From Streptomyces sp. CG1 (GTDB taxonomy: Bacteria > Actinomycetota > Actinomycetes > Streptomycetales > Streptomycetaceae), in contig NZ_CP163518.1 in NCBI RefSeq assembly GCF_041080625.1, positions 434,001 through 498,000 on the forward strand: DNA of 64,000 nucleotides, read 5' to 3'. Position 1 is the first letter of the stretch; every line of letters starts with the position of its first letter. This document shows, piece after piece, positions 7,068-61,243 of the stretch. Below the pieces are notes generated by a model. It worked only from the letters and a program-made list of their open reading frames with translations. It searched no databases and was not told where the DNA came from. Position numbers and translations under genes: made by a program.

Positions 7068-7101
7068 GGGCCGGTCGTCCCCGCTGCGAGCCGATCGGCC
7101 C
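7068..7101. promoter_or_regulatory. Pair of DosR-type boxes upstream of the M50 protease gene
   Basis: Two 14-bp palindromes fit the pattern GGGnC-N4-G(T/G)CCC: GGGCCGGTCGTCCC (7068-7081, full fit) and GAGCCGATCGGCCC (7088-7101, one mismatch). Centres are 20 bp apart and 130-155 bp before the ATG at 7224. In mycobacteria DosR/DevR binds GGGACTWWAGTCCC-like cores, often as pairs about two helical turns apart. Binding here is inferred. Confidence 0.5.
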
Positions 7102-7223
7102 CTCCCCGCAGGACGGCCACCGCCCGACGATGAAGGTGCCGCGGGCCCGCTCCGTGACGCGGAGAACGGCGCCGCCCGACGAGTGACGGGCGCGGCACCG
7201 CTCAGAGGGTGAGGCGAGGATTC

Positions 7224-8363
7224 ATGGACGAGACGCTGTCCCTCGGCCGGATCGGCGGGGTGCGGGTGGGACTGCACTGGAGTGTCCTGGTCATTGTCGC
7301 CCTGGTGACGGTCGCGCTCGCGCGCGGGCGGTTTCCCGATGCCCACCCGGGCCACCCCGCCATCGTATACTGGGCGCTCGCCCTGCTCGCTGCGGTCGTC
7401 TTCCTCTGCTCACTGCTGGCACACGAACTGGCGCATGCCGTGGTCGCCCGCCGCAACGGCGTTCAGGTGGACGGCATCACCTTGTGGATGCTGGGTGGCG
7501 CCGCCCGTCTGCACAGTGAGGCTCCGACGCCGGCCGCGGAGCTGCGTATCGCGGGCGTGGGTCCACTCACGAGTCTGGTGGCCGGTGGCGTACTGGCGGG
7601 CGTCGCCGCAGGGCTGGACGCGCTCCACGTGTCCGGGCTGGTGGTCGAGGCGTTCGTCTGGCTGGCCGCGATCAATGTTCTGCTGGCCGTGTTCAACGCG
7701 CTGCCCGCCGCGCCGCTGGACGGAGGGCGGCTTCTGCGGGCGTTCTTGTGGCATCGCACGGGCGATCGGCTGCGGGCCACTCGCGGGGCCTCGGCGGCGG
7801 GCCGTGTACTGGGCTGGTTCATGGTGGTGACCGGATTCGCTGCTGTGCTGTTCGGACGTGACCTGTCGGGTCTGTGGCCCGCGCTGATCGGCTGGTTCCT
7901 CATCGGCGCGGCCACCGCCGAGGCCCGCCAGGCCGAGATGCGCGGCGTGCTGGGTGGTGTCCCGGTCAGCCGGGTCATGACTGCGGATCCTGTCACCGTG
8001 CCGGAGACGGCGGCCCTCGCCGATTTCCTTGCGGAGGGGCCCTTCGGCCAGTACCGGCACTCCACGTTCCCGGTGCTGGCGGCGGACGGCTCGGTGGCTG
8101 GTGTGCTCACCCTGCGGCGCGTCAACGCGACGCCGGCCGAGGCTCGCGCGAGCACGAGGGTCCAGGAGGTGATGCGTCCCCTCACCGACGTCGTCACGGC
8201 CGAGCCCGGCGAACCCGTCCTCGACCTGCTCCCCCGCCTGGAGACGAGCCCTGTACGCCGGGCGCTGGTCCTCGACGAGGGCCGTCTGGTCGGCATCCTC
8301 ACCATCGCCGACATCACCCGTGCCCTGTCCTGGCCTGCCGTGTCGGCCCCGGCCCGGCACTGA
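7224..8363 (+). CDS. Site-2-protease (M50) with two CBS domains, Rip3-like
   Basis: A 379-residue membrane protein. The zinc motif HELAH is at residues 67-71 in a membrane helix, and the third ligand motif (NALPAAPLDGG, Asp about 166) is in a later helix; six or so membrane segments span residues 15-230. Residues about 245-375 carry two CBS repeats (VSRVMTADPVTVPE and VQEVMRPLTDVVTAE starts), which usually bind adenosine nucleotides. This M50B-CBS order matches mycobacterial Rip3 (Rv2625c), a member of the DosR regulon. It likely cuts membrane-bound anti-sigma or signalling proteins in response to nucleotide state. The ATG at 7224 was preferred to the GTG at 7209 because GAGGCGAGG precedes it. 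A box pair lies upstream. Confidence 0.9.
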   Translation: MDETLSLGRIGGVRVGLHWSVLVIVALVTVALARGRFPDAHPGHPAIVYWALALLAAVVFLCSLLAHELAHAVVARRNGVQVDGITLWMLGGAARLHSEAPTPAAELRIAGVGPLTSLVAGGVLAGVAAGLDALHVSGLVVEAFVWLAAINVLLAVFNALPAAPLDGGRLLRAFLWHRTGDRLRATRGASAAGRVLGWFMVVTGFAAVLFGRDLSGLWPALIGWFLIGAATAEARQAEMRGVLGGVPVSRVMTADPVTVPETAALADFLAEGPFGQYRHSTFPVLAADGSVAGVLTLRRVNATPAEARASTRVQEVMRPLTDVVTAEPGEPVLDLLPRLETSPVRRALVLDEGRLVGILTIADITRALSWPAVSAPARH

Positions 8364-8403
8364 CAGCCACCTGGTGTCGGCACCAACTCGGAGGAGGTGC
8401 GTG

Positions 8404-8840
8404 ATGACGAGTCCGGTGTCATCCACTGATTCGGCCGCTCCGGTTTCCCCGGGCGGCATCGAAGTGACTTACGCGGGAGGCCAGGCGTTCGCGGTCACGC
8501 CATGGTCACCGATCAGCCCGTCGAGGCGGGTGGTGGCGACCTCGGCCCCACGCCCGTCGAAGTCCTCGTCGTGTCGCTCGCCACGTGCGTCGCCCACTAC
8601 GCGGAGCGCTTCCTTGCCCGCCACCACCTCGAACGTGAACACCTGTGCGTCATGGCGGACTTCACGATGGCTGAAGACCGACCTGCCCGAGTCGCCTCTA
8701 TACGGCTGCGGGTTCTGTTGCCGCAGGAGTCGCGAGAGTTGAGCAGGGCCAGGCGTGAGGCTCTGCGCGCGGTGGTCGACCACTGCACTGTCCACAACAC
8801 GTTGCGGCAACCACCGTGGATTACGGTCGAGTTCGGCTGA
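8404..8840 (+). pseudogene. OsmC/Ohr-family protein, frameshifted near its N-terminus
   Basis: From the ATG at 8404 (site GGAGGAGG just before) the frame reads GGIEVTYAGGQAFAVTP and then loses homology. The rest of the OsmC fold continues in another frame from about 8500: MVTDQPVEAGGGDLGPTPVE, LVVSLATCVAHYAERF and a second cysteine in VVDHCTVHNTL. The two cysteines are the peroxidatic pair of OsmC proteins. One frameshift near 8495-8502 splits the gene. The part from 8502 could be translated alone (112 residues) but would lack the first strand and has no ribosome site. Either a recent loss or a sequence error. It lies directly after the M50 gene, so it was probably co-transcribed. Confidence 0.75.
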
Positions 8841-11520: not shown

Positions 11521-11555
11521 TGGGCCAGACGTCCCTCAGCGGGACCGACCGGCCT
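11521..11555. promoter_or_regulatory. DosR-type box with a weak partner, between USP and SulP genes
   Basis: GGGCCAGACGTCCC at 11522-11535 fits GGGnC-N4-G(T/G)CCC fully. A poorer copy (GGGACCGACCGGCC, 11541-11554) has its centre 19 bp away. It could control the USP operon to the left (62 bp from its start), the SulP gene to the right, or both. Confidence 0.42.
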
Positions 11556-11618
11556 ACCGCCACGCAACAGCTTGCCGGAGCCGTACGACAGTGGATCCTG
11601 AGAGCGGAGGACGAGCGC

Positions 11619-13351: not shown

Positions 13352-13387
13352 GGGAACCGCACGGCCCACCGGGGGCCGGATGGCCCC
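13352..13387. promoter_or_regulatory. DosR-type box pair upstream of a CBS-BON gene
   Basis: GGGCCGGATGGCCC (13373-13386) fits the box pattern fully and is flanked by further complementary bases (G/C). A weaker partner lies at 13352-13367 (GGG then CCC arms, centre 20 bp away). The pair ends 67 bp before the ATG at 13455. Confidence 0.5.
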
Positions 13388-13454
13388 TGGCCACTCTTCC
13401 CACACCGGCACACGCTGGTAACGGCAGGACCGATACAGACCTCATGGAGTGATC

Positions 13455-14129
13455 ATGTACGGCACCTCGCACATCGTCAGCGATGTCATGACCCACACGG
13501 TCGCCGCCGTCGGGCGGCGGGCCCCCTTCAAGGAGATCGTGCAGCTGATGCAGGACTGGCGCGTCAGCGCGTTGCCCGTGATCGAGGGCGAGGGCCGGGT
13601 CGCCGGTGTGGTCTCCGAGGCCGATCTGCTGCCCAAGGAGGAGCTCCGGGACGACCCCGATACGGGCTACCTCCAGCTGCGTCAGCCCGTCGACGTGGCG
13701 AAGGCCGGCGCCCTCACCGCAGGAGACCTCATGTCCTCCCCCGCCGTCACGATCCGGGCCGGCGCCACCCTGGCGGAGGCCGCCCGCACCATGGCGCGCG
13801 AGGGGGTCAAGAGGCTGCCGGTGGTGGACGAGGCCGGTCTGCTGGCGGGCGTCGTCAGCCGTGCCGACCTGCTCAAGGTCTTCCTGCGCGACGACGAGGA
13901 CATCGCCGAGGAGGTCCGGCGCGAGATCGTGTCGTATCTCTTCCCGCTGTCGTCCTCGGCCGTCCAGATTGAGGTGCACGACGGAGTCGTCACGCTGACC
14001 GGCCGGATCCGCGACACCACGCTGGTCCCCGTGGCCGCGCGCCTGGTACGGGCCGTCGAGGGCGTGGTGGACGTACAGTTCGACCTGGCCCGCGACGTTC
14101 CTCGAGTGAGTGGAGCCGGTCGGCCCTAG
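13455..14129 (+). CDS. CBS-CBS-BON protein
   Basis: A 224-residue protein starting at the ATG at 13455, after GGAG at 13446-13449. Two CBS repeats (about residues 6-60, VSDVMTHTVAAVGRRAPFKE with LPVIEGEGRVAGVVSEADLL; about 87-145, LMSSPAVTIRAGATLAEAA with LPVVDEAGLLAGVVSRADLL) precede a BON domain (about 150-215, VQIEVHDGVVTLTGRIRD). It is close in layout to the proteins at 8866-9552 and 51110-51784, which points to local duplication. It lies directly before the DevR-like regulator in the same orientation with a 78-bp gap and may share its transcript. The adjacent box pair suggests regulator control. Confidence 0.88.
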   Translation: MYGTSHIVSDVMTHTVAAVGRRAPFKEIVQLMQDWRVSALPVIEGEGRVAGVVSEADLLPKEELRDDPDTGYLQLRQPVDVAKAGALTAGDLMSSPAVTIRAGATLAEAARTMAREGVKRLPVVDEAGLLAGVVSRADLLKVFLRDDEDIAEEVRREIVSYLFPLSSSAVQIEVHDGVVTLTGRIRDTTLVPVAARLVRAVEGVVDVQFDLARDVPRVSGAGRP

Positions 14130-14207: not shown

Positions 14208-14951
14208 ATGACCGCGCCACGCACCTTCACCCAGCAGGACCCGATCCGCGTGTTCCTGCTGGACGACCACGAGGTCGTACGACGCGGCCTGACCGACCTG
14301 CTGGACGCCGAACCGGACATCACCGTGGTCGGCGATGCGGACACCGCCGACCACGCCCTCACCCGCGGCCCGGCACTGCGCCCGGACGTCGCCGTACTCG
14401 ACGTGCGGCTGCCGGACGGGGACGGCATCTCGGTCTGCCGGGAGCTGCGCAGCCGGATGCCGGAACTGGCGTGTCTGATGCTGACCTCGTTCGACGACGA
14501 GGACGCCCTGCTCGACGCCATCATGGCGGGGGCGTCCGGGTACGTCCTGAAACAGATCAAGGGATCCGACCTGGTCTCGGCCGTGCGCACCGTCGCCTCG
14601 GGCCAGTCGATGCTCGACCCGGCGACCACGGCCCGCCTCATGCGCTCGCTGCGCGCCGACCCGGCCGGGGCACCGTCCCTTCCGCCGGAGCTGGCGGGCC
14701 TGTCGCCACGGGAACGGGACATCCTCTCCCTCGTCGGCGACGGCCTCACCAACCGGGAGATCGGCAAGAAGCTGTACCTGTCGGAGAAGACCGTCAAGAA
14801 CCACATCTCCCGGCTGCTGGCCAAACTCGGTGTGCAGCGCCGGGTCCAGGCGGCCGTCCTCGCCTCCCACCTTGAGCAGCACGAGCACCTTGAGCAGCAC
14901 GAGAGCCCTGACCAGCACGAGGCAGCAGATCACTCCGACTCCGCACACTGA
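14208..14951 (+). CDS. devR: DevR/DosR-type NarL-family response regulator
   Basis: A 247-residue protein, ATG at 14208 after GGGAGG. The receiver domain (about 12-130) has the acidic pair DD in FLLDDHEVVRRGL, the phospho-Asp D65 in AVLDVRLPDGDG, T93/S94 and K115. The C-terminal LuxR-type helix-turn-helix (about 165-215) reads LTNREIGKKLYLSEKTVKNH followed by SRLLAKLG, almost the mycobacterial DevR recognition helix with its DNA-contacting Lys, Lys and Asn. The GASGYV and LDPATTA segments also match DevR. No histidine kinase lies next to it or anywhere in the window. The C-terminus has an unusual His/Gln/Glu repeat tail (residues 221-240). A single box-like site (CGGTCTGCCGTCCC, 14175-14188) just before the ATG hints at self-control. 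It is the likely regulator of the box pairs in this window. Confidence 0.92.
   Translation: MTAPRTFTQQDPIRVFLLDDHEVVRRGLTDLLDAEPDITVVGDADTADHALTRGPALRPDVAVLDVRLPDGDGISVCRELRSRMPELACLMLTSFDDEDALLDAIMAGASGYVLKQIKGSDLVSAVRTVASGQSMLDPATTARLMRSLRADPAGAPSLPPELAGLSPRERDILSLVGDGLTNREIGKKLYLSEKTVKNHISRLLAKLGVQRRVQAAVLASHLEQHEHLEQHESPDQHEAADHSDSAH
14868..14921 (+). repeat. Three 18-bp direct repeats in the devR C-terminus
   Basis: The unit CACCTTGAGCAGCACGAG occurs exactly at 14868-14885 and 14886-14903, with a degenerate third copy at 14904-14921. It encodes HLEQHE repeats after the DNA-binding domain, and the copy number may vary between strains. Confidence 0.9.
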
Positions 14952-15885: not shown

Positions 15886-15923
15886 AGAGCCGAACGGCCC
15901 TGGTGGAACGGCGTGACGGCCCT
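15886..15923. promoter_or_regulatory. Possible weak DosR-type box pair before the V-ATPase operon
   Basis: GAGCCGAACGGCCC (15887-15900, one mismatch) and CGGCGTGACGGCCC (15909-15922, two mismatches) have centres 22 bp apart, 65-100 bp before the first ATPase gene and close to the divergent CBS-BON start. Such degenerate matches are common in this base composition; the spacing and position are the only support. Confidence 0.3.
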
Positions 15924-15987: not shown

Positions 15988-16431
15988 ATGAGTCTGCGGG
16001 ACTTCCTGGAGCGGTTCCGTCCGGCGGGAACACCGGGGGCGTCCGTCACCGGCGTGCCCGCCGACCGTACGGCGGAACGCGCCGCGGAACTGGAGCCCGC
16101 CCTCGCACAGCTGACGGACGTGCAGCGGGAGGCGGCGCGGATCCGGGCCGCGGCGGACGCGGCGGCCGAGGCCGTGCGGCAGGAAGCCGCTCGGGAGGCG
16201 GCACGCATCGTCGCGGCCGCTCAGGAACGTGCTCCCGAGATCCGCCGACAGGCCGCGGAGCCCGTTCTCCGCGAGGTGCGGAGGGAGGCGGACGCCCTGC
16301 GCGCCGCCGGGGACCGCGCCGCCGCGGCGGTCCGGGAGCGGGCAGGACGGCGCATGCCGGAACTGGTGGACCGTACGGTGGCGGACGCGCTGCGCCTGGC
16401 AGGTGGCCAAGGCGGAGGTCAAGCGTCATGA
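15988..16431 (+). CDS. V/A-type ATPase peripheral-stalk subunit G/H
   Basis: A 147-residue protein with the ATG at 15988 after GGGAGG. Residues about 30-130 are one long Ala/Arg/Glu-rich coiled coil (REAARIRAAADAAAEAVRQE and similar), as in AhaH/NtpF-type stalk subunits that pair with subunit E. It is the first gene of a nine-gene operon with start-stop overlaps, which supports the call even though the sequence is low complexity. The stop overlaps the next start by 4 bases (ATGA at 16428). Confidence 0.75.
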   Translation: MSLRDFLERFRPAGTPGASVTGVPADRTAERAAELEPALAQLTDVQREAARIRAAADAAAEAVRQEAAREAARIVAAAQERAPEIRRQAAEPVLREVRREADALRAAGDRAAAAVRERAGRRMPELVDRTVADALRLAGGQGGGQAS

Positions 16432-17343
16432 GTGCCGGCTGGGTCGCCGGTGCGGTGCGGGCCAAGGCTCTTGTCGGCCGGTGTCCGGGTGCCGGTGGAG
16501 CGAGGCAGATCGCGGCTTGTGGCACGCTCGACGACGCTCTGCGGTACTTGGCGGCGACCCCGTACTCGCGCTACTCGCGGACGGCGGTCGGTCTGCCCGG
16601 GGCCCAGCGGGCGGTGACCGCCACGCTGCTGTGGCATCTGCGGGTGCTGGCCGGATGGCTGCCCCTGGGCGGTGCCCGGCTGCTCGTTCCGCTGGCCGCC
16701 GGGTTCGAGATCGCCAACGTGGCCTCCCGGCTGTCCACGCTGGACGGTCGCCGCGTGGAAGCCCCGGAGCCGTACCGGCTCGGGGCGCTGGAGACCGCCT
16801 GGCGGAGCCTGGAGCTTGCCGGTACACCTGCGGAACTGAGGGCGGCGCTCGCCGCCTCGCCCTGGGGCGATCCGGGTGGTGACACGTCATGGGCTCTGGT
16901 CACGGGCATGCGGATGGCCGCCGCGCGGCGCACCGCCGTTGCCGTACCGCCCGCGCGCCGCTGGGCCCAGGCACGCGCGGTCCTGCTGACGGCCCGTGAA
17001 CTGTTCGTGCATCGGCGTTCCCTGCCGGAGCCCGCCCAGCGTGACGCGGCCCGGCTGCTCGGGGCGAGGGCGTCCGGCGCCGCGTCGTACCAGGAGTTCC
17101 GCGAGCACCTCCCCTCGGCTGCCCGTTGGGTCCTGGCGGACGTCGAGGAACCAGACGCACTGTGGAAAGCCGAGGCCCGCTGGTGGCGGACCGTGCAGGC
17201 CGACGGCGGGGCGATGCTGCGCGCCGGCCGGTACGGGTCCCGCGTGGTCGTGGGCGCGGTAGCGGTGTTGTCCGTGGACGCCTGGCGGGTGCGGGCGGCG
17301 CTGGAGTCGGCGGCGCGCGGCGGCCGACCGAGGGAGGTGTTCG

Positions 17344-17357
<14 letters not shown>
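16428..17357 (+). CDS. V/A-type ATPase subunit C (AC39/d-like)
   Basis: A 309-residue, Leu/Ala/Arg-rich helical protein with the features of the AC39 family: an N-terminal YLAATPYSRY segment, a membrane-apposed LPLGGARLLVPLAAGFEIAN region (residues about 78-97), and late WRVRAALESAARGG. Subunit C/d is the socket joining the central axle (D, F) to the c-ring. It is not strongly conserved, so the call leans on gene order (H-C-I-K-F-E-A-B-D). The start overlaps the upstream stop, and its stop overlaps the next gene by 14 bases. Confidence 0.78.
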
Positions 17358-19184
<1,827 letters not shown>

Positions 19185-19186
19185 CC

Positions 19187-19414
19187 ATGGGCACCGTGGC
19201 CGCCATCGGGACACGGACCAGCGTGTGCGGGCTGGCCCTGGCCGGGGTCGAGGTCCGCGTGGCGGAGGATCCGGAAGCCGTCCGCCGGGCCTGGCACGAG
19301 CTTCCCGGCACGGCCGCTCTCGTGATTCTCACGGCCGAAGCCGCCGAAGCGCTGGGGGCCGAGATCATGATGCCTGCCCCTTCCCGGCCGCTGACGGTGG
19401 TGATGCCCCGATGA
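19187..19414 (+). CDS. V/A-type ATPase subunit F
   Basis: A 75-residue protein. The N-terminal VAAIGTRTSVCGLALAGVEV is the typical subunit F strand-helix start, followed by ALVILTAEAAEAL. It is short for the family (about 100 residues), lacking the C-terminal helix that in other enzymes contacts the central axle. It is two bases after the K stop and overlaps the E start by 4 bases. Confidence 0.82.
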   Translation: MGTVAAIGTRTSVCGLALAGVEVRVAEDPEAVRRAWHELPGTAALVILTAEAAEALGAEIMMPAPSRPLTVVMPR

Positions 19415-19920
19415 CCGCGCCGGTGGACGCGTTGGACCCCGTACGCGTGGAGTTGCTGCGCGCGGCGCGGGCCTCGGCCGACTCCGTCCGGGACCGTGCG
19501 CGGGCCGAGGTGGACGAGACCTTGCGCGCCGCCCGAGCTACGGCTGAGCAGGTGCTGGCGCAGGCACGGGACCTCGGCGAGGGGGACGGCGCCGCCGCCG
19601 CGGAGCGGGAGCGGCTGCGAGCGGTGCGGGAAGCCTGGGCGGTGGAGCTCGCGGCCCGTGCCGAGGTCTACGCGGAACTGAGCACCAGGGTCCGCGCAGG
19701 CGTGCGCCGGGCGCTGGCAGAGGGTGCCGTACCGCGGGCCCGGCTCGCGGAGACGGCACGAGCCATGCTGGGCACGAAGGCACGTGTCTCGGCTGTCGCA
19801 GGGGGCGGGGTGACGGCCGAGGTGCCCGGACGCCGGGTCGATCTGTCGGCGGACGCCCTCGCCGACCGCGCCCTGGACCGGCTGGGCGTGCGGGCCGAGA
19901 CACTGTGGGGGCCACCGTGA
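19411..19920 (+). CDS. V/A-type ATPase peripheral-stalk subunit E
   Basis: A 169-residue protein from the ATG at 19411 (ATGA overlap with subunit F). The N-terminal half is coiled coil (residues about 15-95, rich in Arg, Glu, Ala). The C-terminal half (about 100-165) has the globular strand-helix pattern of subunit E that caps the A3B3 head. It pairs with the G/H subunit of the first gene. The call rests on length, coiled coil and operon position. Confidence 0.78.
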   Translation: MTAPVDALDPVRVELLRAARASADSVRDRARAEVDETLRAARATAEQVLAQARDLGEGDGAAAAERERLRAVREAWAVELAARAEVYAELSTRVRAGVRRALAEGAVPRARLAETARAMLGTKARVSAVAGGGVTAEVPGRRVDLSADALADRALDRLGVRAETLWGPP

Positions 19921-21686
19921 CCGCGGGCGGCACTCAGGGGGCAGACACCGAACCGGCGCTCTCACGAACGGACGGCGCGTCGCGCCCACGGATCCTTCGG
20001 GTCGCCGGCCCTCTCGTGGAGATCGCCTGCCCTGCCTCGGTCGCCATGCACGACCTGGTCATGCTGGGCGCCGCCAGGCTGCCGGGCGAGGTGGTCGCCA
20101 TCAAGGGCGATACGGCCACCGTTCAGGCGTATGAGTACACCGGCGGGCTCGCCCCCGGACATCCGGCGGAGCCCCAGGGCCGGCCGTTGTCGGTACGGCT
20201 TGCCCCGGATCTGCTGGGCGGCGTGTTCGACGGTCTGCTGCGGCCCTTGGCCGGTACCGGCGACCTTCTGACGAGCGGATCGAACGCGGCGCCGGACGGG
20301 CCCAGTTGGCCGTTCACGCCACAGATCGCCGAGGGCGCACTGGTCTCGGCCGGGGACCTTCTGGGGGAGATGGGAACGAGCGTGTCTCTCCGCCTCCTGG
20401 TGCCTCCGGACCTCTCGGGCACGGTGACCCGGATCGCGGCGGCGGGTGATCACTCCCCGGACGCCGTCCTCGCCGTGGTGGGCGGGCAGGAGGTGCGTAT
20501 GGCGCAGTCCTGGCCGGTACGCAGGCCACGGCCGGTCGCGGAGAGGTTGCCGGCGAACCTGCCGCTGCACACCGGGCAGCGCGCCGTCGATCTGCTCTTC
20601 CCGGTGGCCCGCGGCAGCACGGTCGCCGTGCCGGGCGGTTTCGGCACCGGGAAGACCATGCTGTTGCAGCAGATCGCCAAGTGGTGCGACGCCGACGTGA
20701 TCGTCTACGTCGGCTGCGGCGAGCGTGGTAATGAAATGGCGGACGTCATCGCGGAGTTGGCGGAACTGACCGACCCCCGCACCGGAGGACGCCTGGCCGA
20801 TCGCACGGTGACCATCGCGAACACCTCCAACATGCCGATGATGGCCCGCGAGGCGAGCGTGCACACGGGTGCGACGGTCGCCGAGTACTTCCGCGACATG
20901 GGCCTGGACGTCGTCCTGATCGCCGACTCGACCTCCCGTTGGGCGGAGGCACTGCGCGAGTTCGCCTCCCGGATGGGCGAACTCCCTGCCGAGGAGGGCT
21001 ATCCGGCGGGGCTCGCCTCCCAACTGGCCGCGTTCTACGAGCGAGCCGCCGCGGTGCGCACCCTGGGCGGTGCGACCGGCTCCGTCACGGTGATCGGTGC
21101 CGTGTCCCCGCCGGGCGGCGACCGCACCGAACCGGTCACCGCGCACACCGAACGCTTCGTACGGTGCCTGTGGAGCCTGGACCGCGACCTCGCCTACGCG
21201 CGGCACTACCCAGCCGTCTCATGGGCGGACTCCTTCTCTCGGGACGCCGCCGCGCTGACCGCCTCCCACGTCCGGGCCGGTGACCCCGAGTGGGCCGAGC
21301 GGCGTGGACGGGTGGCGCGGCTGCTCGCGGAGGCGGACCGGCTGGCCGATCTGGTGGAGTTGGTGGGCATCACGGCGCTGCCGCCCCGGGAACGGGTCAG
21401 CGTGCTCGCGGGGCGACTGCTGCGCGAGGCCGTGATCCAGCAGAACGCACTGTCATCGGCGGACGCCTACAGCGCCCCCGAGAAGACCACCGCGCTGGTG
21501 GAAGCCGCGCTGACGGTGATCGACCGCTGTCTGGAAGTGGTGGACTCCGGTGCTGCGGCGGACGCGGTCGAGGCAGTGGACTTCACGCCGCTCCTGCGCG
21601 CCCGTGAGACCGCGGGCCCCGCCGAGACCGCTCCGGTGGCAGCCGCACGGGACACCGTGCTGGATCGGCTCAAGGGAGTGGCATAG
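19917..21686 (+). CDS. V/A-type ATPase catalytic subunit A
   Basis: About 589 residues, GTG start at 19917 overlapping the E stop. The N-terminal beta-barrel (RVAGPLVEIACPASVAMHDL) and the bulge domain are present. The P-loop reads GGFGTGKT at residues 240-247 (K246 contacts phosphate), a variant of the usual GPFGSGKT. Walker B and the following stretch are VVLIADSTSRWAEALRE, and EMADVIAE-type loops are intact, so it should hydrolyse or make ATP. The full length is normal. A start at the GTG at 19905 is also open. Subunits A and B form the A3B3 head; in bacteria the enzyme can run either as pump or as synthase. Confidence 0.95.
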   Translation: MTAGGTQGADTEPALSRTDGASRPRILRVAGPLVEIACPASVAMHDLVMLGAARLPGEVVAIKGDTATVQAYEYTGGLAPGHPAEPQGRPLSVRLAPDLLGGVFDGLLRPLAGTGDLLTSGSNAAPDGPSWPFTPQIAEGALVSAGDLLGEMGTSVSLRLLVPPDLSGTVTRIAAAGDHSPDAVLAVVGGQEVRMAQSWPVRRPRPVAERLPANLPLHTGQRAVDLLFPVARGSTVAVPGGFGTGKTMLLQQIAKWCDADVIVYVGCGERGNEMADVIAELAELTDPRTGGRLADRTVTIANTSNMPMMAREASVHTGATVAEYFRDMGLDVVLIADSTSRWAEALREFASRMGELPAEEGYPAGLASQLAAFYERAAAVRTLGGATGSVTVIGAVSPPGGDRTEPVTAHTERFVRCLWSLDRDLAYARHYPAVSWADSFSRDAAALTASHVRAGDPEWAERRGRVARLLAEADRLADLVELVGITALPPRERVSVLAGRLLREAVIQQNALSSADAYSAPEKTTALVEAALTVIDRCLEVVDSGAAADAVEAVDFTPLLRARETAGPAETAPVAAARDTVLDRLKGVA

Positions 21687-21694
21687 GGATTGAC

Positions 21695-23098
21695 ATGAGC
21701 GGCACAGGGAACGCGATGGGCGTCGAGTACACGGGCGTGCGGGAGCTGCGCGGGCCGCTCGTGGTCGTCGAAGGCGTGCGCGGGGTGGGCTGGGACGAGT
21801 TCGCCACCATCGTGCTCGACTCCGGTGAACGACGGCACGGGCTGGTCCTCGAAGTGGACCGGGACCTCGCGGTGGTTCAGGTGCTTCAGGACACGGCCGG
21901 CATGGACCGGGCCGGCACACGGATCGCCTTCGCCGGGACGCCGTTGCGCATACCGGTGGGCCCCGGGTGGCTGGGGCGGGTGTGCAACGGGCGGGGCGAA
22001 CCGGCCGACGGCGGGCCGCCCGTGCTGGGCGGCGCCTACGCGCCGGTCGGCGGCGCGCCGATCAACCCGGTGCGCCGTGAGCCGCCGACCGAGCCGGTGC
22101 TGACCGGGGTGGGCGCCGTGGATGTCCTCACCACGCTGGTGCGGGGCCAGAAGCTGCCGGTGTTCTCGGCGGCCGGCCTGCCCCATCTGGAGCTGGCGGT
22201 GCAGATCGCGGCCCAGGCGACGTGCGGCGGTGAGCCGTTCGCCGTCGTGTTCGCCGGCATGGGGCTCACGCACGCCGACGCGGCGTTCGTCCGGGAGGGA
22301 CTGGCCGCCCGCTCCGCCGCACGGGAACTGGTCCTCCTCGTCAACACGGCCGACGACCCGGTGATCGAACGATTGCTTACCCCACGTCTCGCGCTGACCG
22401 TCGCCGAGCACCTCGCGTTCGTGGAGGGCCGGCACGTCCTGGCGGTGATGACCGACATGACGGCCTACGCGGAGGCGTTGCGCGAAGTGTCCGCCGCGCG
22501 GGGCGAGATACCGGCGCGCCGGGCCTACCCCGGCTACCTCTACAGCGACCTCGCGTCCCTCTACGAGCGCTGCGGCAGGATCAGGAGCCGCCCGGGATCG
22601 GTGACCGTCCTCCCGGTACTCACCATGCCCGCGGGCGACATCACCCACCCCGTGCCGGACCTCACGGGCTACATCACGGAGGGGCAGATCGTGCTCTCCG
22701 CCGAAGTCCACGCCACCGGCACGTATCCCCCGGTCGACCCACTGGCCTCGCTGTCCCGGCTGATGCGCAAGGGAACCGGACCAGGCCGCACCCGCGCCGA
22801 CCATCCGCCCGTGGCCGCGCAGTTGATCGCCGCGCTGGCCCGCTCCCGGCAGGTGCGCGAACTCGCCGATCTGATCGGACGCCCCGCGCTCAGCCCCACT
22901 GACCTGCGTTTCCTGGACCTGGAGGACGCTTTCCGCCATCGGTTCCTCGCCCAGGGCGCGGACGAGAACCGGTCGCTGGACGAGTCCCTGGACCGGGCCT
23001 GGGAGGTGCTGCTGACCCTGCCGGCCAGCCAGCTCGGCATGATCCCCGCCGACCTGCTCGACACCCATGCCCCACCCCGGCACGAGGAGGCGCCATGA
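21695..23098 (+). CDS. V/A-type ATPase regulatory subunit B
   Basis: A 467-residue protein, close to the family norm. The N-terminal barrel (YTGVRELRGPLVVVEGVRGV) is followed by the nucleotide-binding region, where the P-loop is replaced by PVFSAAGLPHLELAVQIA, as expected for the non-catalytic subunit. The RRAYPGYLYSDLASLYERCG motif near residues 268-288 is highly conserved in B subunits, and GSVTVLPVLTMPAGDITHPV follows. It begins 8 bases after the A stop and overlaps subunit D by 4 bases (ATGA). Confidence 0.95.
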   Translation: MSGTGNAMGVEYTGVRELRGPLVVVEGVRGVGWDEFATIVLDSGERRHGLVLEVDRDLAVVQVLQDTAGMDRAGTRIAFAGTPLRIPVGPGWLGRVCNGRGEPADGGPPVLGGAYAPVGGAPINPVRREPPTEPVLTGVGAVDVLTTLVRGQKLPVFSAAGLPHLELAVQIAAQATCGGEPFAVVFAGMGLTHADAAFVREGLAARSAARELVLLVNTADDPVIERLLTPRLALTVAEHLAFVEGRHVLAVMTDMTAYAEALREVSAARGEIPARRAYPGYLYSDLASLYERCGRIRSRPGSVTVLPVLTMPAGDITHPVPDLTGYITEGQIVLSAEVHATGTYPPVDPLASLSRLMRKGTGPGRTRADHPPVAAQLIAALARSRQVRELADLIGRPALSPTDLRFLDLEDAFRHRFLAQGADENRSLDESLDRAWEVLLTLPASQLGMIPADLLDTHAPPRHEEAP

Positions 23099-23715
23099 GC
23101 GAGCACGGGCGCCGCGTACCGGCGGGGCGTGCCGGCCGGCTGCGGCTTCGCCGCAGCCTCGCCACCGCGCTGCGCGGTTCGGACCTGCTGGACCGCAAGC
23201 TCCGGCTCCTGCTGGACCGGGAGGGCGCGGAGCGACGAGCGGCCGAGGAAGCGGGCCGCGTCTGGCGGGAACGGCTGGCCGAAGCCGAATCCTGGCTGGT
23301 GCGCGGGGTGATGCTCGGCGGTGAGCAAGCGCTGGCGGAGGCGGTTCCGGCGGACCAGGCCTCCGTCGAGGTCGAGTGGGACGCGCTGATGGGAGCGCGC
23401 CATCCCGCGGCCGTGGCCTGGACCGGCCCCGTCCGCTCACCGGCGGAACCGACGCCCTCCAACACGGCGCTCGAGCACGCCGAAACGGCCTACCGTGCCG
23501 CGGTCCGCGCCGCGGCGGACCATGCCGCCCACCGGTCAGCCGCCGAACTGCTCGCCGCCGAAGCGGCACGCACCCGGCAGCGGGTCCGCGCCCTGCGCCA
23601 CCACTGGATCCCGCGGCTGCGCGGTGACCTGGCGGCGGTGGAACTCGCCCTTGAGGAAGCCGAACACGAGGAAGCGGTACGACGCCGCTGGGCCGCGACG
23701 CATGGAGCCGCGTGA
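23095..23715 (+). CDS. V/A-type ATPase central-axle subunit D
   Basis: A 206-residue protein with N- and C-terminal long helices. The start RVPAGRAGRLRLRRSLATAL resembles the family pattern of an N-terminal helix with LL-K (LLDRKLRLLLD), and the C-terminal TRQRVRALRHHWIPRLRGDL matches the conserved TxxRVNALE-type motif and the IP-x-L kink. Subunit D turns inside the A3B3 head. It is the last gene of the operon; a strong two-way terminator hairpin follows at 23736-23759. Confidence 0.9.
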   Translation: MSEHGRRVPAGRAGRLRLRRSLATALRGSDLLDRKLRLLLDREGAERRAAEEAGRVWRERLAEAESWLVRGVMLGGEQALAEAVPADQASVEVEWDALMGARHPAAVAWTGPVRSPAEPTPSNTALEHAETAYRAAVRAAADHAAHRSAAELLAAEAARTRQRVRALRHHWIPRLRGDLAAVELALEEAEHEEAVRRRWAATHGAA

Positions 23716-24268: not shown

Positions 24269-24305
24269 GAGGCCGAACAGTCCATTCCGATGCCCCTTAC
24301 GTCCC
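24269..24305. promoter_or_regulatory. Possible weak DosR-type box pair between hsp20 and pncB
   Basis: AGGCCGAACAGTCC (24270-24283) and GCCCCTTACGTCCC (24292-24305) each keep one good arm, with centres 22 bp apart, in the gap between two divergent genes whose mycobacterial counterparts (hspX, pncB2) are DosR-induced. Confidence 0.33.
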
Positions 24306-24370
24306 TTTTGCCCATATCCGGTGCGATCAGACTGGTAGCGAGGGAACGACTACACACGGCGGCGATCACC

Positions 24371-25822
24371 ATGTCCGACGTCACCACGACCGATCTCTAC
24401 GAAGTGACCATGGCCCTGTCCTACCTTCGGGAGGACATGCGGGCCCCTGCCACCTTCAGCCTCTTCGTCCGCGACCTCCCGCCCGGCCGGGGCTTCCTCG
24501 TCGCCGCGGGTCTGCAGCCCGCCCTCGACTTCCTGGCCGACTACCGCGTGGAGCGGGAGGACGTCGAGGAGTTCGCGGCCGCGCTGCACCGCCCGGTCCG
24601 GGACCTCGAACCGCTCCTCGGCCTCGCCTTCCAAGGCGAGGTGCGTGCGGTGCCGGAGGGGCATGCGGTGTTCGCCCACGAGCCGCTGCTGGAGGTGACC
24701 GCCCCGCTGCCGCAGGCCCAGCTCGTCGAGACGTACCTGCTGAACCAGATCTGCCACCAGACGGCCGTGGCGTCCAAGGCGGCGCGCTGCGTCCTGGCCG
24801 CGGAGGGAAAGCCTGTCGTGGACTTCTCGCTGCGCCGCACGCACGGCCCGTGGGCAGGTCACCAGGCGGCCCGGCTGGGTGCCCTGGTGGGTTTCGCCGG
24901 CACCAGCAACGTCGCCGCCGCCACGGCCCTCGGCATCCCGGCGTCGGGCACCATGGCTCATTCGTACGTCGAGGCGTTTCCCGGCGAGGAAGAGGCTTTC
25001 CGCGCTTTCGCGCGCTCCCACCCCGGGCCGGTGACCTTCCTTGTCGACACCTACGACACCGAGGAAGGCCTGCGTACAGCCGCCCGGGTCCTGAGCGACC
25101 TCCGGCGCGGTCCGGGCTGCGCCATCCGCCTGGACAGCGGTGACCTCGAAGCGCTGGCACGCCGGGCACGCGCCGTTCTGGACGCCGCCGGTCTGGCCGA
25201 CGTGCGGATCGTGGCCAGCGGCGGGCTCGACGAGTACGGCGTCGCCCGGCTGGTCCGCGCCGGCGCCCCGATCGACGTGTACGCCGTGGGCACGCGGGTG
25301 GGCGTGGCGGCGGACGCCCCCTATCTGGACGCCGCGTACAAGCTCGTCGAGTACGACGGCCGCCCCGTGATGAAGCTGTCCTCGGCGAAGATCACAGCAC
25401 CGGGCCGTAAGCAGGTGTTCCGCCGCACCGGACGGCCCGACGTCATCGCGCTGTGCGGGGAGGAGGCGCCGGACTCCGCCCGGCCGCTGCTGCGCACCGT
25501 CATGCGAGGCGGCCGGCGGACCGGACCACCGGACCGGTGGCAGGGCGCCCGCGAGCGGTTCCGCGAGGACATGGCCGGTCTCCCCGAACCGGCCCGCCGC
25601 ATCCACGACCCCGATCCGGTCAGGCCGGTCCGGTCCCGGGCCCTCGCCGAGCTGACCGCCAGGGTGCGCGCCGGCATCGAAGCCCGACTGGACCCGGAAC
25701 ATACGGGCCCGGCGCCCTCCTGCGGCCAGCGTTGGCCGAGCGTGCGTAGTCAGCAGTCCCGTCGCGACGGGGGTCGCCAAGTCCGGCCTGGGGACCAATG
25801 GCCCCTGGCAGGTCGGCCGTAG
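24371..25822 (+). CDS. pncB: Nicotinate phosphoribosyltransferase
   Basis: A 483-residue protein (ATG at 24371) that makes nicotinate mononucleotide from nicotinate and PRPP in NAD salvage. Family motifs in order: TTDLYEVTMALSYL at the N-terminus, VVDFSLRRTHG (about 155-165), FAGTSNVAAATALGIPASGT with MAHSYVEAF (about 177-205), FLVDTYDTEEGLRTAARV (about 222-240), IRLDSGDLEAL, and VYAVGTRVGVAADAPYLDAA (phosphate loop). In M. tuberculosis pncB2 (Rv0573c) is DosR-controlled. The last 25 or so residues, after EARLDPEHTG, look like non-native read-through, and they cover a DosR-type box. No strong ribosome site is seen, but the N-terminus fixes the start. Confidence 0.93.
   Translation: MSDVTTTDLYEVTMALSYLREDMRAPATFSLFVRDLPPGRGFLVAAGLQPALDFLADYRVEREDVEEFAAALHRPVRDLEPLLGLAFQGEVRAVPEGHAVFAHEPLLEVTAPLPQAQLVETYLLNQICHQTAVASKAARCVLAAEGKPVVDFSLRRTHGPWAGHQAARLGALVGFAGTSNVAAATALGIPASGTMAHSYVEAFPGEEEAFRAFARSHPGPVTFLVDTYDTEEGLRTAARVLSDLRRGPGCAIRLDSGDLEALARRARAVLDAAGLADVRIVASGGLDEYGVARLVRAGAPIDVYAVGTRVGVAADAPYLDAAYKLVEYDGRPVMKLSSAKITAPGRKQVFRRTGRPDVIALCGEEAPDSARPLLRTVMRGGRRTGPPDRWQGARERFREDMAGLPEPARRIHDPDPVRPVRSRALAELTARVRAGIEARLDPEHTGPAPSCGQRWPSVRSQQSRRDGGRQVRPGDQWPLAGRP
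25770..25805. promoter_or_regulatory. DosR-type box pair inside the pncB 3' end
   Basis: GGGACCAATGGCCC (25791-25804) fits the pattern fully and is extended to 16 bp by flanking G and C. A partial partner (GGGTCGCCAAGTCC, 25771-25784) has its centre 20 bp away. The pair lies about 87 bp before the degenerate DUF1918 gene and 318 bp before the USP gene, so it probably once drove both. Confidence 0.52.
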
Positions 25823-27096: not shown

Positions 27097-27133
27097 AAGT
27101 CCACTCGGCCCCGCATCAGGCCCGGTCGGCCCC
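27097..27133. promoter_or_regulatory. DosR-type box pair upstream of the Acg-like nitroreductase
   Basis: GGCCCGGTCGGCCC (27119-27132, one mismatch) and AGTCCACTCGGCCC (27098-27111, two mismatches) have centres 21 bp apart, about 130-160 bp before the GTG at 27260. The gene they precede is an Acg homologue, a classic DosR target in mycobacteria. Confidence 0.42.
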
Positions 27134-34216: not shown

Positions 34217-34252
34217 TGCGCCCCACGGTCCTCACTAGTGCCGTTCGGCCCC
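34217..34252. promoter_or_regulatory. DosR-type box pair before the Rv1733c-like gene
   Basis: GTGCCGTTCGGCCC (34238-34251, one mismatch) and GCGCCCCACGGTCC (34218-34231, two mismatches) have centres 20 bp apart, 28-63 bp upstream of the GTG on the minus strand, about where an activator would sit next to a promoter. Confidence 0.42.
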
Positions 34253-35533: not shown

Positions 35534-35570
35534 GGGGCGCTTCGGCCCGCGCCGGAGGACCTTCGGCCCC
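35534..35570. promoter_or_regulatory. Strong DosR-type box pair upstream of a USP gene
   Basis: GGGCGCTTCGGCCC (35535-35548) and AGGACCTTCGGCCC (35556-35569) each have one mismatch to GGGnC-N4-G(T/G)CCC and share the inner CTTCGGCCC. Centres are 21 bp apart and lie about 90-125 bp upstream of the ATG at 35446. It is among the best pairs in the window because both boxes are good. Confidence 0.55.
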
Positions 35571-35589: not shown

Positions 35590-36060
35590 TCAGCTCCGTT
35601 CGTACGCCTGTCGCACACAGGCGGCAACCCGGTCGGTCAGCTCGGGGAGGGCCGACCGCACCGCTTCGCTCAGTCCTGCGCCCAGTGCGACGTCGGCCAC
35701 CTCGACGGCATGCACCACCAGCTTCTGCGGCAGCTGGTCGAGGGCTTCCGCCAGGGCGAGACACTCCGCCAGCCCGAAGGCATGTGTGCTCGCCGTCCCC
35801 GCTGGGTGTCCGGCCACCTCCTCCGATGTCAGGGTGTGCAGCTCACCCGGCTGGCCCGACCGTGCACGGAGGGCTTCCACCACGACCACGGTGTCCGCAC
35901 CGCGCCACAGGTCGAGCATGCGTGCGGGTTCACCGTCACTGACCGTCAGGACGGTGTCGTCCGGAACACGCCCCCGCAACGCCTCCACCGCTGCCGGGCC
36001 GGCCCCGTCGTCACCACGCAGCGGATTGCCCACCCCGATCACCACCACCCGGCCGCTCAT
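35590..36060 (-). CDS. [NiFe]-hydrogenase maturation endopeptidase
   Basis: A 156-residue protein of the HybD/HycI/HoxW family. The start VVVIGVGNPLRGDDGAGPAA carries the family signature with the nickel-contacting acidic residue in the GDDG loop; a second acidic site (DTVVVVEALRA) and a His (THAFGLAECLALAE) fill the remaining positions. It trims the C-terminus of the large subunit after nickel insertion. Its start overlaps the large-subunit stop by 4 bases, which fits a dedicated protease. It is the last gene of the hydrogenase operon. No hyp accessory genes lie in the window, so nickel/iron assembly must be supplied elsewhere. Confidence 0.9.
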   Translation of the reverse strand: MSGRVVVIGVGNPLRGDDGAGPAAVEALRGRVPDDTVLTVSDGEPARMLDLWRGADTVVVVEALRARSGQPGELHTLTSEEVAGHPAGTASTHAFGLAECLALAEALDQLPQKLVVHAVEVADVALGAGLSEAVRSALPELTDRVAACVRQAYERS

Positions 36061-38278: not shown

Positions 38279-38279
38279 G

Positions 38280-40374: not shown

Positions 40375-40408
40375 CACGGGTCTGGTCCGTTCGTCCCGTC
40401 GTCCTCGT

Positions 40409-41097: not shown

Positions 41098-41134
41098 TGA
41101 GCCGTCCGGCCGCGTACGAAGGCCGTTCGACCCA
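41098..41134. promoter_or_regulatory. Possible weak box pair between the hydrogenase and acyl-CoA synthetase operons
   Basis: GAGCCGTCCGGCCG (41099-41112) and AGGCCGTTCGACCC (41120-41133), two mismatches each, have centres 21 bp apart in the 156-bp gap between divergent operons. Each is weak alone. Confidence 0.27.
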
Positions 41135-56320: not shown

Positions 56321-56336
56321 CGGGCCCAACGGTCCT
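56321..56336. promoter_or_regulatory. Single DosR-type box before the small membrane protein
   Basis: The core GGGCCCAACGGTCC (56322-56335) has one mismatch to the box pattern, about 125 bp before the small membrane protein gene. No partner box is seen at 20-22 bp. A weak hairpin from the GH65 end overlaps it. Confidence 0.33.
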
Positions 56337-56645: not shown

Positions 56646-57227
56646 CGCCTCTCGGCCCCGCGCTCCGCAGCCGCCGTCGCCAGCGGCCGGCTCTCCTGAC
56701 CGGTGCTCACGTCGAAGGCCCGACGAACAGGTGGCGGCGGTCACTCCTTGCCGCGGACCACCGCGACGGAGCAGTGCGCGTGGTGCAGCAGGGCCTGGCT
56801 GACCGAGCCGAGGAGCAGGCCGGTGAAGCCGCCGCGGCCGCGTGCACCGGCCACGACCAGCTGCGCGTCGTAGCTCGCTTCGATCAGCGCCGGGCGGATC
56901 CGAGAGCGCACCAGGCGCCGCACTCCAGCAACCTCGCTGCCGGTGACACCGCTGCCGCAGGCTATTTCCGCAACACCGCCGCGGCCGAGGCCCGGGCCGC
57001 CGCCGCCTTCCAGGCGGCGCGGAACCGGCTGCGCTGAGCGCCCCGCCCTGACTCGACCCCATGCCGGCCGGGTGGCCTCGTGACCGAGTTGCGTGCCGGT
57101 GCGACGGGGTGGTCCGAGCAGCGCGATCCGGGGACGAACGGCCCTGCCGTCGAATCCGTCGCGAGGCGCAAGCTGGATGTCGGATACGGACAGCTGATCT
57201 CACCGCCGGGGAGGACGGGCATCGGGC
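56646..57227. other. Debris region with a universal-stress fragment
   Basis: Apart from the USP fragment at 56741-56923 there is only a short plus-strand peptide end ([20 protein letters not shown], stop near 57037) that may be the tail of a lost gene. No intact gene is supported. Confidence 0.45.
56741..56923 (-). pseudogene. C-terminal fragment of a universal stress protein
   Basis: The 60 residues read [20 protein letters not shown] then [20 protein letters not shown] and end [11 protein letters not shown]. This is the complete C-terminal third of a USP with an intact ATP loop. The first strand and most of the fold are missing upstream. It is the eighth USP sequence in the window. Confidence 0.8.
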
Positions 57228-57566
57228 ATGAGCGCCAGGGACACGGGCGTGGTCGAGGAGACGCGGGTGCTGGTCGTCGAGGACGACCGGGGCATTGCGG
57301 AGTCCCTGGTGCGCGGTCTGCGGCAGGTCGGCTACGCGGTCGAGGGCGTACGGACGGGGCGGGCGTCGCTGTCGGCGCCCAGTCCCGATGTCGTGCTGCT
57401 CGATCTGGGGCTGCCCGACATCGACGGTGTCGAGGTGTGCCGCAGGCTGCGGGCGCGGTCGGACGTCGCGATCACCGCGCGGGGCGAGGAGGCGGACCGG
57501 GTGGTGGCCTTGGACGAGGGCGCCGACGACTATCTGGTCAAGCCGTTCGGGCTGGCTGAGACGTGA
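57228..57566 (+). pseudogene. Truncated OmpR-type response regulator (receiver domain only)
   Basis: A 112-residue frame: TRVLVVEDDRGIAESLVRGL, the phospho-Asp in VVLLDLGLPDIDGVEVCRRL, then VAITARGEEADRVVALDEGA and DDYLVKPFGLAET followed by a stop. Three or four residues are missing before TARG (normally a hydrophobic strand), the winged-helix output domain is absent, and no sensor kinase follows. It is a relic, although a stand-alone receiver cannot be ruled out. Confidence 0.75.
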
Positions 57567-59649: not shown

Positions 59650-60981
59650 ACACCTCGGCCACGATGCCCCTCGCCCTCCCCCACCCCGCAGCAGCTCCCG
59701 GCGAAGCCCGGCTGCTGGCGGACTGGTACACCACCGGGCGACCGGCCACCCTGAACGACCACCTGACGCGCTACGGGCCACCCCCCTGTCGCTGCCGCGC
59801 TCGGCAGCCGTACGTCACTGCCGCTGGTGGAGGCCGTCGAGGCGGCCGGGCTCACGGGGCGCGGCGGCGCGGGCTTCCCCACCGCCCGCAAGCTGCGCGC
59901 CGTGGCAGAACGCCATGGCCGCGCCGTGGTCGTCGTCAACGCCATGGAGAGCGAACTGGCCAGCCGCAAGGACCAGTTCCTGCTCACCGTCGCACCCCAC
60001 CTCGTGCTCGACGGTGCCGTGCTGGCCGCGGTCGCAGTGGGCACGGACACCGTTCACGTGTGCCTCCCGCGCGACCGCTCCACCCAGTACCGGCAGCTCA
60101 GCACCACCCTGGACGAGCGTAACCGGGCCCGCCCCGACCCCCTGCGACTGCGGCTGAACGCCCTTCCCCACGCCTACGTCTCCAGCGAGTCGACCTCTCT
60201 GGTGCGCTGGCTCAACGGAGGCCCGGCGCGCCCACAGGGCAGCCCGCCACGCACCCACGAACGCGGAGTCGACCGACGCCCCACGCTCGTGAACAACGTC
60301 GAGACTCACGCCCAACTCGCCCTCATCGCCCGCTACGGCCCCGGCTGGTACTGGCAGGCGGGCACCCCGGACAAGCCCGGCACCACGCTCGTCACCGCCT
60401 CCGGCGCCGTCGCCGCGCCAGGTGTGCTGGAGGCAGCGCTCGGCACACCGGTCACCACGCTCCTCGAACGCGCCGGAGGACCCACCGAACCCCTGCGGGC
60501 GGTCCTGCTCGGCGGCTCCGCCGGCACCTGGCTCCCGGCGGCACATCTGGACACGTCCCTCGTCCGGCGCGACCTCGCCCCGCTGGGTGCCGCACCCGGC
60601 GCCGGGGTCCTCATCGCGCTGCCCCGAGCTGCCTGCGGGCTGAGCGAGACGGCTCGAATGCTTGCCTACCTGGCCGCCCACAGCGCCCGCCAGTGCGGCC
60701 CTTGCCACTTCGGGCTGCCCGCCGTGGCCGAGGACTTCCCCGCCCCGGCCGCCGGACGCGCCGATCCGGGCCTGCTGTCCCGCCTGCGCAACCGCACCGG
60801 TCTGCTACCCGACCGCGGCGCCTGCCGCCACCTCGATGGAGCCGCCCGCCTCGCCGCCTACGTCCTGCGCGCCTTCACCGACGACGTCGACCACCACCTC
60901 ACCCACGGCCCCTGCCCCGCAGTCCACCAGTCGCCCCGCATCCCCGTACCAGCCGCAACACCCCCGGAGACATGGCGATGA
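59646..60981 (+). pseudogene. NuoF/RnfC-like NADH-dehydrogenase flavoprotein, frameshifted
   Basis: GTG start at 59646 (overlap with the previous stop). The N-terminal part (AAPGEARLLADWYTTGRPAT) is in one frame up to about 59785. From about 59800 the enzyme continues in another: LTGRGGAGFPTARKLRAVAE (NADH/FMN site of the 51-kDa subunit), VVVVNAMESELASRKDQFLL, PTLVNNVETHAQLALIARYG, LLGGSAGTWLPAAHL, and a cysteine region QCGPCHFGLPAVAED ... GACRHLDGAARL with three visible Cys. One or two indels near 59780-59800, beside CCACCCCCCTG, break the frame. It should take electrons from NAD(P)H. Its 3' end overlaps the ferredoxin start. Confidence 0.82.
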
Positions 60982-61190
60982 CCAGCACTCGAAGCCTGCG
61001 CATCAACCGCATCACCTGCACCGGGCAGGGCCTGTGCGCCGAACTCCTGCCCGAACTGATCGACCTCGACGAATGGGGCTACCCCATCCTGAAAGACCGA
61101 GCGGTACCCGACCAGCTGCGTACCCACGCCCGCCGAGCCGTCGCCGCCTGCCCCCGCCTGGCCCTCCACACCGACCGGCGCCAACCATGA
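60978..61190 (+). CDS. Small iron-sulfur ferredoxin (3Fe-4S type)
   Basis: A 70-residue protein. The cysteines are C14 and C20 (ITCTGQGLCAELLPELIDL) and one in AVAACPRLAL; the usual CxxCxxC is reduced, as in actinobacterial 3Fe-4S ferredoxins that serve cytochromes P450 and related reductases. The middle LDEWGYPIL also fits that family. It overlaps the NuoF-like stop (ATGA) and closes the redox operon. It probably carries electrons between the flavoprotein and the membrane heme protein. Confidence 0.85.
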   Translation: MTSTRSLRINRITCTGQGLCAELLPELIDLDEWGYPILKDRAVPDQLRTHARRAVAACPRLALHTDRRQP

Positions 61191-61227
61191 CCAGCACGTA
61201 CAAGCACCGTCCGCCTGGCCCTGAAGT

Positions 61228-61243
61228 AGGGCCGGACGTCCCC
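61228..61243. promoter_or_regulatory. DosR-type box before the P1B-hemerythrin ATPase
   Basis: GGGCCGGACGTCCC (61229-61242) fits the box pattern fully, 82 bp before the ATG at 61324. A second, shorter near-palindrome GGGGACCGGCCCC lies at 61278-61290 and is not in the standard spacing. Confidence 0.45.

Follow-up and report, generated by a model that had tools for sequence, protein, structure and literature searches.

Paired OsdR-type boxes two helical turns apart in a stress-gene block of Streptomyces sp. CG1, probable operators of a DosR-family regulon

The 64,000-nucleotide stretch of Streptomyces sp. CG1 analysed here (the window; C1:434001-498000, contig NZ_CP163518.1, GC 71.6%, in a genome of 11.1 Mb) raises the question of whether the GC-rich palindromes recurring in its intergenic gaps are operators and, if so, of which regulator. 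Its Pfam content comprises universal stress proteins, CBS and CBS-BON proteins, OsmC, Hsp20, a nitroreductase-family protein, a nicotinate phosphoribosyltransferase, P-type ATPases and pyruvate dehydrogenase-type genes, together with a V/A-type ATPase operon and a [NiFe]-hydrogenase-like operon. By predicted gene content this is a large block of low-oxygen and stress genes with box pairs at their start regions (the gene map comes from long open frames and base composition, and start codons are inferred). An initial annotation had described ten pairs of DosR-like palindromes and two single ones, and the palindromes are indeed present where it placed them. Our answer is that the boxes are very probably operators of an OsdR/DevR/DosR regulon, presumably read by phosphorylated OsdR dimers that would sit side by side where two boxes lie two turns apart.

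For S. coelicolor, the available part of Urem et al. (PMC5069765) gives AGGGCCGATCGGCCCT as the OsdR consensus and tabulates predicted sites, several of which were tested by gel shift. A symmetrised weight matrix built from 25 of the published sites, and hence independent of the window, found there 11 sites of at least 12 bits (17 per 100 kb), whereas 600 kb of control DNA had 14 (2.3 per 100 kb; 30 stretches of the same genome, one of which, L023, contains the third regulator described below); at 10 bits or more the counts were 20 and 44, respectively. Dinucleotide shuffles of the window (200) gave means of 4.65 sites of at least 10 bits (maximum 11) and 1.20 of at least 12 (maximum 6), while 200 matrices with permuted columns gave 6.1 and 1.9, equalling the observed count in one and in no case, respectively. 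Box density is alike elsewhere, with six sites of at least 12 bits in the 41 kb at 393-434 kb and four in the 21 kb around osdR2, the gene for a second copy of the regulator (785-806 kb), and the box-rich island (393-498 kb) therefore exceeds the window. The osdR loci of relatives (80 of the 568 confirmed relatives listed, some sharing one genome) contain 333 sites of at least 12 bits in 1.59 Mb.

Pairing in the window was assessed with a primary box of at least 10 bits and a partner of at least 4 bits at distances of 16-60 bp. Seven pairs fall at 19-22 bp (one primary is counted in two registers, leaving six distinct pairs) and two at all other distances, whereas the shuffles have a mean of 0.06 at 19-22 bp (maximum 2 in 200) and the control DNA three in its 600 kb. 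The arrangement at about two helical turns noticed by the initial annotation is thus recovered with the independent matrix. Its ten individual pairs fared unevenly: six are good (7067, 11521, 15886, 27097, 35534 and 41098), including two that it had called weak, 15886 being in fact among the best; the third pair called weak, 24269, does lie below threshold and recurs in orthologues; and the partners at 13353, 34217 and 25770 are poor, as it had remarked of several. Both of its single boxes were found again (Table 1).

The spacing is also seen in the 80 relatives' loci. With a primary of at least 12 and a partner of at least 5 bits, and after clustering at 80% identity, 89 of the 179 non-redundant pairs at 16-60 bp lie at 20-23 bp (19, 32, 24 and 14 at 20, 21, 22 and 23 bp), one lies at 16-19 bp, and the other 89 are scattered over 24-60 bp at about 2.4 per distance. 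Under rank-matched thresholds the share at 20-23 bp is 88/178 (0.494), compared with a mean of 0.088 and a maximum of 0.197 for 60 permuted matrices and a uniform expectation of 4/45; the binomial value of 1.8e-44 for the peak assumes independent pairs, which these are not fully. Pairs are also far commoner between genes than within them or in shuffled sequence, the comparison on which the initial annotation had staked its proposal: by heuristic gene calls, 82 of the 113 pairs at 20-23 bp lie in intergenic DNA, which makes up 14.8% of bases, and the shuffles contain nearly none. Operators of 20 bp packed end to end would be consistent with the scarcity below 20 bp, and the narrow range would fit a single DNA face. 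A slight excess of pairs at 31-33 and 53-56 bp was also seen in these loci (L029-L108), together with some triple arrays in steps of 20-22 bp (L058, L081), hinting at a longer-range helical phasing.

The same spacing appears in other families. Twenty loci from genomes of eight of them, hand-picked among the listed matches with enough contig, were scored with a matrix for a generic GGG[AC]C palindrome, kept fixed, with weights set by hand and modelled on DosR boxes; 42 primaries in 18 of the loci yielded 18 pairs at 16-60 bp, 12 of them at 20-23 bp (eight at 22 bp) and the remaining six at 18, 39, 44 (two), 50 and 51 bp. In these 20 non-Streptomyces loci, a motif search by expectation-maximisation wandered off to a coding pattern of 3 bp and was dropped.

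The protein encoded at 14208-14951 is, judging from its sequence, a DosR/DevR/OsdR-type regulator. Among solved structures it matches M. tuberculosis DevR (3c3w) with 249 bits, the next being VraR with 141 bits, and its closest named relatives among the matches listed are from Streptomyces, with up to 92% identity. Of the 93 NCBIfam models that it matches, the 25 listed all stay below their cut-offs (the best, MadR, at 190.7 of 300), and none of these 25 carries the name DosR, DevR or OsdR. All of the DevR residues 8, 9, 54, 82, 104, 179, 182 and 183 are conserved in the alignment, including D54, T82, K104, K179, K182 and N183. We take K104 to be a switch residue and K179 and N183 to contact DNA, as K182 reportedly does. 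D54 is the phosphoacceptor and T82 a switch residue of DevR (PMC3029386, PMC4973870). The DosR-like reading of the initial annotation therefore stands for the regulator, but the published Streptomyces member is OsdR, with its own box as given above (PMC5069765). Before osdR1 the matrix finds a box that the initial annotation had passed over, a putative autoregulation site: 65 of the 80 loci have a site of at least 12 bits in the 400 bp preceding the osdR match, at a distance of mostly 60-120 bp, as compared with 14 of 1470 control segments.

Recurrence upstream of homologous genes was followed in sets cut by E-value, with paralogues included and the window's own copy counted in each. Nitroreductase and stress-protein loci were oriented by shared 4-residue words; for the M50, phosphoribosyltransferase, synthetase and V/A-ATPase loci the match was assumed to start at base 1501, which is wrong for a few that are truncated by a contig end or matched only in part (e.g., L278 and L280). 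Of 30 loci with homologues of stress protein 34571-35446, 14 carry a pair at 20-22 bp whose first box lies between -110 and -122. Pairs at 19-23 bp precede seven of 30 nitroreductase homologues, eight of 16 synthetase orthologues (at varying distance from the gene) and six of 24 phosphoribosyltransferase homologues, the window's own promoter being below threshold in this last set. For the M50 gene, a pair at 20-22 bp is found in four of 12 loci, namely the window and the three nearest orthologues (73-83% identity, gene distance varying), and in none of the eight at 56-60% identity. Only four of 1320 control segments of 450 bp and four of 780 of 750 bp contain a pair. The place of the box is fixed for the stress protein, osdR and V/A-ATPase genes and its distance varies for the M50 and synthetase genes, and box and spacer sequences vary across promoters and species while the spacing remains constant. 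Even the sub-threshold pair at 24269 has counterparts: two of its three nearest orthologues have a 22-bp pair within about 15 bp of the equivalent place (9.7/6.0 and 13.8/5.6 bits).

The V/A-type ATPase operon is a probable new OsdR target, as predicted from the pair at 15886-15923, which ends 65 bp before the ATG of its first gene. Its C subunit was found in 20 of 246 genus genomes sampled, our own included. Fifteen of these 20 loci have a site of at least 9 bits 515-609 bp upstream of the C subunit (control, 66/780 segments); 14 of the sites score at least 14 bits and one 10.0, and in a case with 51% identity the site is a perfect consensus. A pair at 19-23 bp occurs in that zone in six of the 20 loci, against four of 780 control segments. 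The OsdR site table in the available part of PMC5069765 has no V/A-ATPase, pyruvate dehydrogenase or phosphoribosyltransferase units, and in a limited literature search we found no paper joining OsdR with a V-type ATPase.

Table 1. Boxes, regulator gene and ATPase operon of the window (window coordinates; scores in bits with the OsdR matrix)
Feature	Position	Strand	Score and context
OsdR box pair, 20 bp apart (7067/7087)	7067..7102		13.9/11.8; upstream of M50 protease-CBS gene (ATG 7224)
OsdR box pair, 20 bp apart (11521/11541)	11521..11556		11.4/8.5; in divergent gap
Strong box with poor partner 19 bp upstream (13353/13372)	13353..13387		2.2/12.3; before CBS-BON gene 13449-14129
Single OsdR box	14112..14127		13.2; 81 bp upstream of osdR1; absent from initial annotation
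osdR1, OsdR/DevR/DosR-family response regulator	14208..14951	+	Response_reg and GerE domains; DevR match; key residues
OsdR box pair, 22 bp apart (15886/15908)	15886..15923		16.1/8.4; among best pairs
V/A-type ATPase operon	15988..23715	+	subunits I, K/c, F, A, B, D identified; C weak; rest inferred
Weak box pair, 22 bp apart (24269/24291)	24269..24306		6.1/4.8; below threshold
Weak box, claimed partner (25770) below 0	25790..25805		9.5; predicted 3' end of phosphoribosyltransferase gene
OsdR box pair, 21 bp apart (27097/27118)	27097..27133		4.8/14.9
Strong box, chance-level partner (34217) 20 bp off	34237..34252		15.8, partner 1.4
OsdR box pair, 21 bp apart (35534/35555)	35534..35570		9.1/10.1; upstream of universal stress protein gene 34571-35446 (-)
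Single box	40383..40398		10.0; upstream of [NiFe]-hydrogenase-like operon (36057-40306, -)
Box pair, 21 bp apart (41098/41119)	41098..41134		5.5/10.1; upstream of acyl-CoA synthetase (ATG 41195) and pyruvate dehydrogenase-type genes
Single box	56321..56336		11.2; downstream of GH65 gene
Single box, top-scoring of window	57130..57145		18.2; upstream of stand-alone receiver-domain gene 57228-57566; absent from initial annotation
Single box	61228..61243		16.5; upstream of heavy-metal-type P-type ATPase gene 61276-62868

Within the window, three divergent gaps have one pair placed almost symmetrically between two genes. The pair at 11521 is flanked by a universal stress protein (predicted start 11459, -) and a SulP permease (predicted start 11619, +); that at 15886 separates a CBS gene (start 15821, -) from the ATPase operon (ATG 15988, +); and that at 24269 lies between Hsp20 (start 24200, -) and the nicotinate phosphoribosyltransferase (start 24371, +). 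The proximal box edge is 61-69 bp from a plausible start for seven genes (SulP, the 11459 stress protein, the V/A-ATPase operon, the CBS gene, the phosphoribosyltransferase, Hsp20 and the synthetase) and farther for osdR (81 bp), the 35446 stress protein (88 bp), M50 (122 bp) and the nitroreductase (127 bp). The pair at 27097 precedes the nitroreductase-family gene (start 27260), a CBS gene and a P-type ATPase, and the box at 25790 lies far upstream of a universal stress protein gene. Further sites absent from the initial annotation are 9922, 40383/40437 and 53495, of which 9922 and 53495 are inside predicted coding sequence; the same is true of 40437 (12.1 bits), 54 bp from the box at 40383. 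The [NiFe]-hydrogenase-like operon adjoining this last box encodes NAD-binding and Fe-S subunits. The stand-alone receiver domain behind the box at 57130 may act as a phosphate sink of the same system or modulate it.

No histidine kinase domain was found among the scanned window proteins. The genome encodes two DevS/DosT-type kinases, at C1:405674-407464 (L010:11674-13464) and C1:786734-788563, whose GAF-A domains align with those of DevS/DosT with a conserved HPPM stretch, which we take to be part of the heme pocket (the place of the heme-binding histidine). The first kinase gene sits 41 kb upstream of osdR1 and has a box of 15.2 bits 82 bp before its longest frame. The second lies about 3 kb from osdR2, in a second box-rich island (C1:786734-792510).

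The mechanism that we propose begins with a DevS/DosT-type GAF kinase, whose sensing of O2, NO or redox state probably runs through heme and which would phosphorylate OsdR at the conserved aspartate, so that OsdR dimers could bind the palindromes. Boxes 20-23 bp apart, or two turns, would place two dimers next to each other on one face of the DNA, an arrangement described for DevR. A good box would recruit the first dimer, contacts outside the DNA-binding domain would draw another to the poorer box, and RNA polymerase might then be aided by the proximal dimer. In divergent gaps a single pair may serve both genes.

Several observations weigh against reading the boxes as OsdR operators. Within the window the literal core GGGNCNNNNGNCCC shows no enrichment (8 vs 10.0 expected); a looser palindrome shows no genome-wide excess (335 vs 390 for the reversed control), nor does a strict pair pattern (9 vs 43 reversed), none of whose nine matches is in the window and four of which lie at 393 kb or directly before osdR2. 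Literal consensus searches fail to split signal from background, and the signal comes from the weighted matrix, the pairing and the positions. Several strong sites are unpaired (14112, 57130, 61228), three of the ten listed pairs have chance-level partners, and 104 of the 333 high-scoring sites of the 80 loci are inside predicted coding sequence (220 are in promoter-type and nine in terminator-type gaps). Many homologue loci have no pair at 19-23 bp upstream (23/30 nitroreductase, 16/30 stress-protein, 18/24 phosphoribosyltransferase, 8/12 M50, 8/16 synthetase and 14/20 V/A-ATPase loci), partly because paralogues were included. Finally, according to the available part of PMC6754071, PolR of Microlunatus phosphovorus has 76% identity to DevR and binds another consensus, GTTCACnnnnnGTTCaC, and the box is therefore not fixed by family membership alone.

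Of the other explanations, the one that survives best takes the sites as real and bound mainly by a paralogue, be it OsdR2, a third DosR-like regulator or all three, which we consider possible if somewhat doubtful. Two further DosR-like regulators in the genome could share the window sites. OsdR2, an 89% identical copy at C1:791806, 344 kb from osdR1, has the same recognition helix (EKTVKNHISR) and a neighbourhood of equal box density. The third, at C1:5510173 and about 58% identical, has a slightly different helix (EKTIKN); its open frame of 235 aa is apparently intact, and it is therefore no pseudogene, an idea rejected once two TGA codons first reported inside the frame were not confirmed. 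However, osdR1 itself lies inside the box-rich island with a box before its own gene, and this alternative concerns which copy acts, leaving the identity of the box untouched.

That the boxes belong to some other NarL/LuxR-type regulator with a similar palindrome is improbable: the genome does have 102 matches to the window regulator at E<=0.001, but the matrix derives from predicted OsdR sites, several of which OsdR bound in gel shifts (PMC5069765, available part), and the sites cluster around osdR genes in the 80 loci, with the generic palindrome near DosR-like genes in 18 of the 20 other-family loci. Chance palindromes of a GC-rich genome, paired by eye, would account for the failure of the exact core, the looser palindrome and the strict pair pattern to exceed expectation, but they are contradicted by the independent matrix, the shuffles, the permuted matrices, the 600 kb control and the recurrence upstream of homologues, which makes chance highly improbable. 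Equally hard to credit are intergenic hairpins, either terminators or repeat elements: the palindromes are GC-rich and often intergenic, but promoter-type gaps outnumber terminator-type gaps 220 to 9, and box and spacer sequences vary while the spacing does not, unlike a copied repeat.

With the OsdR regulon as the preferred reading, the regulon type is already known from mycobacteria and Streptomyces, and what is new is the regular layout and some probable targets. In our limited look at the literature we found neither a spacing rule in Streptomyces nor OsdR boxes at a V/A-type ATPase operon. The analysis adds a quantitative, controlled spacing rule that also appears in other families, recurrence at single promoters including weak ones, overlooked sites and one probable new target. 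In the window the density of pairs at 19-22 bp is about twenty times that of the control, and the rule makes a weak GC-rich consensus a more usable predictor, pointing to Streptomyces targets beyond the published table, foremost the ATPase operon. It also offers a testable account of how one regulator may use poor boxes, and DevR-style cooperativity could be studied in a Streptomyces, a harmless host. On a wider proposal we are evenly divided, namely that the two-turn pair (20-23 bp, rarely 16-19) is the ancestral, class-wide DosR-type operator of Actinomycetes, with two dimers on one face, and that in some Streptomyces it captured a second rotary ATPase, encoded by a V/A-type ATPase operon that OsdR would induce under low oxygen or NO, within a programme for conserving energy to which hydrogenase, pyruvate dehydrogenase and NAD-salvage genes would also belong.

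The system most similar is the OsdKR (DevSR) regulon of S. coelicolor, which, in the available part of PMC5069765, shares with our window the regulator family, the palindrome consensus, the clustering of stress, nitroreductase and oxygen-related genes around osdR and the site before osdR itself. NO signalling via DevS/DevR has been described in the same species (PMC10552308, in part). The two differ in that osdR and osdK form an operon in S. coelicolor whereas the kinase and osdR1 genes are 41 kb apart here, and in that our genome has two OsdR copies and a third relative. Table 1 of that paper lists sites but gives no rule for their spacing, and its available main text contains none of the terms spacing, tandem and two binding sites; nor was a box spacing found in the available part of PMC12919924. 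Likeness to the DosR/DevR dormancy regulon of M. tuberculosis extends from the regulator residues D54, T82, K104, K179, K182 and N183 to closely packed primary and secondary boxes and to divergent promoters with boxes in common (PMC3029386, PMC7018068, both in part). For DevR, those sources describe closely packed sites overlapping the -35 element, one divergent promoter pair with two common sites (PMC3029386), and primary and secondary sites (PMC7018068), and the available part of PMC4973870 describes tandem sites with cooperative binding that requires T82. This likeness is one of close packing, our spacing figures covering the window, the 80 osdR loci of relatives and the 20 loci of other families. 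What distinguishes the window from the mycobacterial regulon is a GGGCC-rich box and a gene content that the two share only in part.

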